DNA of 64,000 nucleotides from Serpentinimonas barnesii (GTDB lineage: Bacteria > Pseudomonadota > Gammaproteobacteria > Burkholderiales > Burkholderiaceae_C), in NCBI RefSeq assembly GCF_000696225.1, contig NZ_BAWN01000006.1, positions 62,001 through 126,000 on the forward strand. The letters run 5' to 3'. The notes below the pieces were generated by a model. It saw only the letters and a list, made by a program, of their open reading frames with translations, made no database searches and was not told where the DNA came from. Positions 32,446 to 34,233 of this stretch are shown in pieces. The first letter of the stretch is position 1; the number at the start of each line of letters is the position of its first letter. A program made the translations under genes and the position numbers.

Positions 32446-34233
32446 ATGTCCTACCTCGTTTTGGCCCGCAAGTACCGGCCGCAGAACTTTGCCCAGATGG
32501 TTGGCCAAGAGCACGTGGTGCAGGCTTTAGGCAACGCCTTGCGCAGCCAGCGGCTGCACCACGCCTACCTGTTCACCGGCACGCGCGGGGTGGGCAAGAC
32601 CACGGTGTCGCGCATTTTGGCCAAGTCGCTCAACTGCACCGGGCCCGATGGGGCGGGTGGCATCACGGCCGAGCCCTGTGGCGTCTGCCCGGCCTGCCGC
32701 GAGATCGACGCTGGGCGCTTTGTCGATTACACCGAGCTCGACGCCGCCTCCAACCGCGGTGTCGATGAGGTGCAGGCGCTGCTGGAGCAGGCGGTTTATA
32801 AGCCGGTGCAGGGGCGCTTCAAGGTGTTCATGATCGACGAGGTGCACATGCTCACCGGTCATGCCTTCAATGCCATGCTCAAAACGCTGGAGGAGCCGCC
32901 CGCCTACCTCAAGTTCGTGCTCGCCACCACCGACCCGCAAAAGGTGCCCGTCACGGTGCTCAGCCGCTGCCTGCAGTTCAACCTGCGCCCCATGCCGCCG
33001 CAAACGGTGCAGCAGCACCTGGAGCAGGTGTTGCAAGCCGAGCAGATCCCTTTTGAGGCCGGGGCGCTGCGGCTGCTGGCGCGGGGTGCACGCGGCTCCA
33101 TGCGCGATGCGCTCAGCCTGACCGACCAGGCCATTGCCTTCGGCGCCGGCCAAGTGTTCGAGGCCCCCGTGCGCCAGATGCTGGGCGCGGTGGAGCGCGG
33201 CCATGTGTTGCACCTGCTGGAGGCGCTGGCGGCGGGCGACGGCGCGGCCGTGGTGCAGACGGTGCAGGAGCTGCGCCTGCAAGGCTACGCCGCCGCGTCG
33301 GCGCTGGAGGAGATGGTGGGCCTGCTGCAGCGCATGGCGGTGCTGCAGGCGGTGCCGGCGCAGTTGCAACCGCACGACCCGGAAGACGCCGACTGCGCCC
33401 GCTTGGCCGGCTTGCTGCCGCCAGACCTCACGCAACTGCTCTACAGCCTGTGCCTGCACGGGCGCGCCGAACTCGGGCTGGCCCCAGACGAATACGCGGC
33501 ACTCAATATGGTGCTGCTGCGGCTGCTGGCTTTTTGGCCCGAGGGGCTGGAAAAAAAAAGCCTGAAAAACGCTGAGCCGCTGCGGCCAAGGCCAGCCGTG
33601 GCGGGTAGGCCTGCAGCGGAACCGGCACTGGCGCCCACTCCGCTGCCTTTGGCGGTGGCCGAGCCGTCGCCGCCGTTTCAGGCATCCAATCCCATGCCTG
33701 CGCCCACTCGGGCTGTGAGCGAGCCGATTGTGCTCAAAGCCCCTGAGCCCGCCGAACCCAAGCCCACATCCTTAGGGCCCACCTTGGCGTCAACCCCAGC
33801 GCCCACTCCAGAGCCAATTGTCCAGCCAGAGCCGCAAGTCACCGCCGACCAAACACTACCCGATTTCTGGCACAGCGTGGTGAGCGAGCTGGTGCAGCGC
33901 GAGGCCGTGACGGCGCTCACGCGCGAGCTGGCGCTGCAGTCGGTTCTGGTGCGGCGCGATGCCGATTGTTGGACGCTGCGCCTAGCCCAGACTGCACTGG
34001 CCCAAGGCAGCGCGCGCGAACGGCTGCAAGCCGCGCTGGCGCAGGCCGGGTACGCGGTGCGGCTGGAGCTGGAAATCGCCCCCGCCCACGACACCCCGGC
34101 CCAGCGCGCCACCGCCGTCGCGCAGGCGCGCCTGCAAGCCGCACACGCGTTTTTGCAGCAAGACCCCTTCGTGCAGGCCATGAAGCGCGACTTTGGCGGC
34201 AAAATCATGCCCGGTAGCGTGCAGGCGCTTTAA
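32446..34233 (+). CDS. dnaX: DNA polymerase III subunits gamma and tau
   Basis: A 595-residue clamp-loader ATPase. Walker A is [20 protein letters not shown], the zinc module is [10 protein letters not shown] with an earlier Cys, the Walker B region is [20 protein letters not shown], and the sensor-1 SRC motif is in [10 protein letters not shown]. Domains I-III end near residue 370; then follow a proline/alanine-rich linker (about 375-465) and the tau-specific C-terminal part that would bind DnaB and the polymerase. A run of nine A residues sits exactly at the domain III/linker border and could give a short gamma form. ybaB and recR follow, as in many bacteria. Confidence 0.96.
33551..33559 (+). 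other. A9 slippery tract in dnaX, possible gamma-producing slippage site
   Basis: Nine consecutive A residues encode part of Glu369-Lys370-Lys371-Ser372. The zero frame stays open to codon 595. In the -1 frame the message reads five further codons to TGA (33572-33574 region), giving about 376 residues; in the +1 frame it reads GCC TGA at once, giving about 372 residues. Both products would keep clamp-loader domains I-III and lose the tau part. Thermus dnaX uses slippage on an A9 tract, and E. coli dnaX uses a -1 shift at AAAAAAG. Confidence 0.6.

Follow-up and report, generated by a model that had tools for sequence, protein, structure and literature searches.

A conserved A9 run with two near off-frame stops in dnaX is a candidate slippage site for a gamma-length clamp-loader protein

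The dnaX locus

The window, by which we mean the whole 64,000-nucleotide stretch of DNA analysed here, contains a dnaX gene for the tau protein of DNA polymerase III (Table 1). The gene product matches the Pfam families DNA_pol3_delta2, DNAX_ATPase_lid, DNA_pol3_gamma3 and DNA_pol3_tau_5 and the NCBIfam family TIGR02397 (dnaX_nterm), and the E. coli gamma/tau chains in the PDB match it at E about 1e-115. Pfam puts domain III at residues 239–362 and tau domain V at residues 480–587, and residues 1–366 align with the gamma chain of E. coli in PDB 1jr3.

Table 1. Features of the window dnaX gene and its A9 run
Feature	Position	Strand	Basis
dnaX, DNA polymerase III tau, zero frame, 595 aa	32446..34233	+	ORF; Pfam; NCBIfam; PDB
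Part common to tau and predicted gamma, domains I–III, residues 1–368	32446..33549	+	Pfam, 1jr3
A9 slippage tract (candidate), read GAA AAA AAA AGC	33551..33559	+	sequence; kept in relatives
TGA stop, A8/A11 frame, one sense codon past the run, 372-residue product	33563..33565	+	sequence
TGA stop, A10 (−1) frame, 376-residue product	33573..33575	+	sequence
Tau domain V (alpha-binding) region, residues 480–587, absent from the short product	33883..34206	+	PF12170 match

A G at 33550 is followed by nine A's at 33551–33559 and then by GCCTGAAAAACGCTGA, and the zero-frame reading at the run is GAA AAA AAA AGC CTG AAA AAC GCT GAG. One A fewer or two more bring GCC TGA and a product of 372 residues, and one A more brings AAG CCT GAA AAA CGC TGA and a product of 376 residues. 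The run stands at 62% of the open reading frame and encodes residues 369–372, between domain III and the tau-specific domain V, so a product shortened at the run keeps the clamp-loader part and loses the tau part.

Most of this had been proposed in an initial annotation, which placed nine A's in dnaX right after the last conserved clamp-loader segment, with near stops in both other frames and products of about 372 or 376 residues that keep domains I–III and lose the tau part. The coordinates and sequence proved correct when the window was re-read, and the stops and product lengths were obtained again by re-derivation. The placement agrees with the end of Pfam domain III at residue 362, and the kept and lost parts agree with the Pfam domain borders and the 1jr3 alignment.

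This A9 is the sole one in the window, both strands being searched. Shuffled versions of the window contain 0.22 A9 runs on average and at least one in 17 of 100 shuffles, so a single A9 in 64 kb is not rare, and any significance claimed from the window by itself was rejected. The run is significant because it is conserved among relatives. The whole genome of the window has five A9 runs, whose contexts were viewed roughly.

Sampling of relatives

Relatives were searched with residues 1–368 only, the run being excluded, and the best 80 of 569 relatives were taken. The 80 are not selected for the tract, owing to this query. Among them are members of Hydrogenophaga, Rhodoferax, Ramlibacter, Variovorax, Acidovorax, Comamonas, Caenimonas, Extensimonas, Xenophilus and Macromonas.

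A wider sample comprised 299 genomes of the family (64 of them, mostly lower-scoring, sampled twice), 200 of the order and 114 of the class. It gave 330 loci with a DnaX match, of which 300 distinct rows entered a FastTree tree; incomplete matches were excluded, as were duplicates with the same first 1,000 bases, and 28 further class-level loci stand outside the tree. The row labels come from a scan for the run over roughly 60 codons around where domain III ends.

Conservation of the A run

Exactly nine A's in the same phase occur in 79 of the 80 best-matching relatives, Hydrogenophaga pseudoflava and Variovorax paradoxus among them, and the 80th (L053) has ten. The clade around the window, a branch of the FastTree tree, holds 189 distinct dnaX genes, and 177 of them have A9, always in the phase GAA/CAA AAA AAA A, these counts across relatives being not independent of one another. 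The 12 other rows are five genes of one genus (g137) with A_AAA_AAG, two with A8 (L332 and L333), the A10 gene L053, one with N letters at the site (L326/L188, counted neither way) and three with no run of eight or more (L150, L338 and L223).

Over the 188 readable genes of the whole clade, an unbroken A8–A10 is present in 180, AAA AAG stands in five from a single genus, and the motif is absent from three. A pattern search of 399 family genomes gave about 150 matches, which were compared with the dnaX positions by eye only, and the sole non-A9 match at dnaX was that of genome G480 (L333).

The lysine codons of the run differ in their history from other lysine codons of the same genes. The AAA-to-AAG change in the run is counted once on the clade tree, against 7–40 AAA/AAG changes needed per site for eight other lysines that are near-invariant across the 177 A9 genes; at these eight, AAA is used in 5.6–53% and AAG in 47–94%. 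A count of AAA in 177 of 177 was rejected as evidence because it is circular, the A9-labelled genes having AAA AAA by definition, and the whole-clade count was used instead.

In the A9 genes, the codon before the lysines is GAA in 172 and CAA in five, and threonine or serine follows them as ACN or AGY, so the A's are constant at places where the amino acids vary. In the later loci, the run begins 0 to 34 codons past the end of the match to residues 1–368, which makes it a conserved island in a variable linker. Judged by these comparisons, what is conserved is the nucleotide run rather than the protein, and the conservation is not chance.

Of the 45 further rows in the larger family branch, 44 are without a run of eight or more and one has A9 (L244). 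Another 66 rows, drawn from other families apart from three stray family members, include 61 without a run, three with A9, one with A10 and one with A8; one of the three A9 rows (L278) has its run in another phase. In an IQ-TREE tree of 76 rows, L244 groups with the A9 set (support 93/87) and the five g137 species stand together inside the A9 group (100/100). These trees do not prove the direction; read most simply, they suggest that the run arose once, close to the base of the clade, and was later lost or altered in places.

Conservation of the off-frame stops

The 177 A9 genes were not selected for stops, and the controls were 13,250 codon positions taken from their own downstream linkers. 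In 172 of the 177 genes, each shifted frame meets a stop within 15 codons, which is the case at 11% of the control positions. The A8/A11 frame has its stop after one sense codon in 156 genes (3.8% of controls) and within four codons in 165, and the A10 frame has one within 16 codons in 175.

Among the 156 genes, the A8/A11 stop is TGA in 146, TAA in eight and TAG in two, and its type changes seven times on the tree, a count conditional on having a stop there. In the same stop-bearing genes, the residue after the leucine or valine changes at least 48 times, whereas the first base of its codon changes only twice, both times from A to G to give TAG. The initial annotation had suggested comparing relatives, and the outcome is as it anticipated: relatives retain the A run as well as the two close stops, and the flanking linker varies in length and sequence.

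An exceptional genus

The initial annotation had also named two observations that would speak against the site, the absence of the tract and its interruption by synonymous A-to-G changes in close relatives. Both are seen to a limited extent. Three of the 189 clade genes have no A run of eight or more at the site, and the synonymous break is found in one nested genus only, g137, where all five species (L147, L339, L340, L341 and L342) read TCA AAA AAG (C/T)CT GA(A/G). The break in this genus creates an E. coli-type A_AAA_AAG, followed as in E. coli by a −1 frame stop after one codon.

Three of the five heptamers were read by eye, as a longer or earlier A run stands beside them. A block of 31 bases, GGAGTGCCGCCGAGCCGTCAAAAAAGYCTGA, is identical in all five species except at the Y, and both of its flanks differ. 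The block includes a GGAG 15 bases before the heptamer, a longer spacing than the E. coli one of about 10 bases between the Shine-Dalgarno sequence and the heptamer. In all five species tRNA-Lys(UUU) is present and no CUU gene is found by pattern. These features are suggestive of an exchange of the decoding level with the gamma product kept.

The partial gene L239 from another genus, which is not in the tree, reads GAA AAA AAG CCT GAA and has an in-phase A_AAA_AAG heptamer.

Proposed mechanism

We consider it likely that the A9 run is a programmed slippage site at which one dnaX gene would yield two clamp-loader proteins, tau and a gamma-length one, mainly by the action of RNA polymerase. The polymerase would slip on the A9 and produce mRNAs of varied run length (A8, A9, A10, A11 and onward). 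Full-length tau would come from messages with A9, or with A9 plus or minus 3n. The other run lengths would bring a stop after one or five sense codons and give a protein of domains I–III with 372 or 376 residues. From the sequences we infer the occurrence of slippage, its mainly transcriptional mode, its rate, and the stability and use of the short protein.

The two near stops fit mRNAs of mixed run length, since the A8/A11 stop is useless to −1 ribosomal shifting. Counting against slippage, the presence of A9 changes at least six times on the tree within the 189-row clade. Counting against the polymerase, the A_AAA_AAA inside the run can also slip on the ribosome. In the three clade genes lacking the tract, gamma would be either dispensable or made otherwise. 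Ribosomal slippage may add to polymerase slippage or, in some species, replace it.

Ribosomal frameshifting

In the strongest competing account, gamma comes mainly from −1 ribosomal frameshifting on the A_AAA_AAA in the run, and polymerase slippage is minor. We regard this as rather improbable. A −1 shift would meet the A10-frame stop found within 16 codons in 175 of 177 genes, but the nearest and most fixed stop, one codon past the run in 156 of 177, lies in a frame that it cannot reach. The nested genus does bear the true heptamer A_AAA_AAG; the accessible text of PMC5009743 describes this E. coli heptamer as far more shift-prone than A_AAA_AAA.

The window has GAGGGG upstream of the run, with a duplex energy to the anti-Shine-Dalgarno sequence of −7.2 kcal/mol, whereas a 5-base Shine-Dalgarno core within 24 bases upstream was found in only two of the 177 A9 genes. 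In 70 sampled A9 genes, both the upstream anti-Shine-Dalgarno pairing (−3.85 against −3.07 in linker controls, p 0.006) and the downstream folding (−23.8 against −21.1 kcal/mol, p 0.004) are slightly above the controls, as the ribosomal account would have it. The downstream fold of the window itself is unremarkable (z −1.15).

Corrected by shuffling, the fold excess in 80 genes is weak on both sides of the run, with a mean z of about −0.5 and p of 0.05 and 0.03 against controls. The downstream fold has a mean z of −0.49 in the 80 sampled genes and −0.17 at 75 control positions (p 0.026). RNA structure gives no clear sign of a stimulator, the shuffle-corrected folds being only weakly stronger and barely different from the controls. 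An upstream fold p of 3e-8, from a comparison without shuffles, was set aside because the upstream windows overlap the conserved coding sequence of domain III.

The lysine tRNAs were considered as a discriminator and rejected. By pattern, the genome of the window and two congeners have tRNA-Lys(UUU) only and no tRNA-Lys(CUU) gene, which is in keeping with ribosomal shifting and gives no favour to the polymerase over the ribosome in this genus. The CUU pattern matched in 230 of 299 family genomes, and ARAGORN confirmed all four loci checked. The tRNA test is weak for the A9 genes in any case because their run codons are AAA.

Other explanations

The run could instead be kept for the protein, as part of a Glu-Lys-Lys-Thr/Ser-Leu motif, or by shared ancestry, with no effect on the frame. 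The two lysines are indeed kept both in the A9 genes and in the AAA AAG genus, yet AAG entered the run in one genus by one change, far below the turnover at the eight other lysines, and the two off-frame stops have no reason at the protein level. Moreover, in genes that retain the stop, A persists as the first base of the following codon, although the residue encoded there varies among K, N, T, I, S and R. This explanation is already disfavoured and we hold it to be very unlikely.

Phase variation at the DNA level, with A8/A10 alleles switching tau on and off, is the most improbable of all, since the A10 gene L053 with its otherwise intact downstream frame and the frame-closing A8 of L333 might suggest it, but L333 has a second frame break downstream and is likely an assembly error, exact A9 in 177 of 189 genes is unlike a hypermutable tract, and tau is essential in E. 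coli.

Relation to known systems

Larsen et al. 2000 reportedly described programmed transcriptional slippage in the dnaX of T. thermophilus. In the accessible parts of three papers (PMC4320859, PMC5009743 and PMC1088944), RNA polymerase slippage on an A9 is given as the source of its gamma-length DnaX. According to the text available from PMC4320859, a slip of one or two bases brings in a UGA that lies two or sixteen codons further on. The type is also marked by mRNAs with A runs of mixed length and by tau and gamma proteins in a ratio of about 1:1.

The window gene resembles that of T. thermophilus in having A9 on the sense strand, tau in one open reading frame, near stops in both frames and a short product without the tau part. 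The site follows the clamp-loader domains and precedes the alpha-binding part as in the T. thermophilus type, a likeness known here from sequence alone. By this layout, the window site is a new, predicted instance of the known Thermus-type dnaX slippage site.

The two differ in that the clade of the window belongs to a different phylum and that the window run comes directly after domain III, the T. thermophilus one being 'seven-eighths' along in the available portion of PMC1088944. Two lysine tRNAs are offered as an explanation of polymerase slippage in T. thermophilus (PMC5009743, in its accessible text); unlike T. thermophilus and like E. coli, the genus of the window shows a single type of lysine tRNA by pattern.

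The E. coli system is also similar in its one dnaX gene, its tau and truncated gamma (the latter predicted here), its A-rich site and the stop right after. Unlike E. coli, the window has no A_AAA_AAG heptamer but GAA AAA AAA AGC, its clade has no conserved internal Shine-Dalgarno core, and the closest conserved stop is in the +1 frame rather than the −1 frame.

A third arrangement is that of nine two-ORF dnaX genes with A10, listed from GeneTack in the accessible part of PMC3711429. The layout of L053 is like theirs in its long A run and in the division of tau between two frames. The window and 176 other clade genes are unlike those described there in having A9, and the window tau is one open reading frame. 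In the open-licence literature we found no description of dnaX slippage for this family, the nine A10 species of PMC3711429, seen in part, being outside that check.

More broadly and tentatively, the group may make gamma by polymerase slippage, one genus may have switched to the ribosomal route, and A9 or A10 sites may have arisen separately in other families of the order, whether at this point of the linker or elsewhere in it; this whole scenario is possible, though we would not yet favour it. If true, such retention of gamma through an exchange of the decoding level would be a strong natural argument for selection on gamma itself. According to the accessible text of a 2012 review (PMC3290774), most bacteria keep no dnaX frameshift signatures and may not make gamma.

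The conserved site, present in many genera, and the nested ribosomal motif would constitute a natural experiment on gamma, in a group with the environmental genera Hydrogenophaga, Variovorax, Ramlibacter, Rhodoferax, Acidovorax and Comamonas. A pure A9 with two near off-frame stops also provides a search rule for slippage that shortens a protein. Such slippage is not considered in the portion of PMC1088944 available to us, and screens for disrupted open reading frames miss it, as stated in the accessible text of PMC4066793.

Variant loci and other A runs in dnaX

Several loci of the clade deserve separate description. In L053, from one metagenome-assembled genome, the A10 ends the zero frame at 385 aa and the remainder of tau lies open in the neighbouring frame, which means that tau would need slippage there. 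L333, with A8, was rejected as a natural gene making tau by slippage, because its second frame break downstream points to assembly indels. Its genome (G480) is in one contig, and both the A8 and the second break are probably homopolymer assembly errors.

L150, of genus g132, has eight G's at about the place of the A run. The dnaX contig of L096, in a genome (G128) filed under family f40, falls inside the A9 clade and is likely a misplaced contig.

Runs of 8 to 10 A's are also present in the dnaX of individual genomes from other families, outside the clade. Most of them have a close stop in each shifted frame, and they are given here, like the class-level runs, as observed counts. Those of L259, L287 and L290 are at the same place. 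Among the 28 further class-level loci, five (L348, L359, L367, L369 and L371) have A8 or longer with mixed stops, the off-frame stops of L359 being 23 and 35 codons away.

L098 and L100, from another family of the order, have A9 far downstream, at codon 490 and codon 518 respectively, each with a TGA after one codon in the A10 frame; the second stop of L100 is 19 codons away. In three families, L256, L265 and L278 have an A8 or A9 run in a different phase, immediately ahead of the conserved FDG(D/N)W, where one extra A leads to a stop after three codons.
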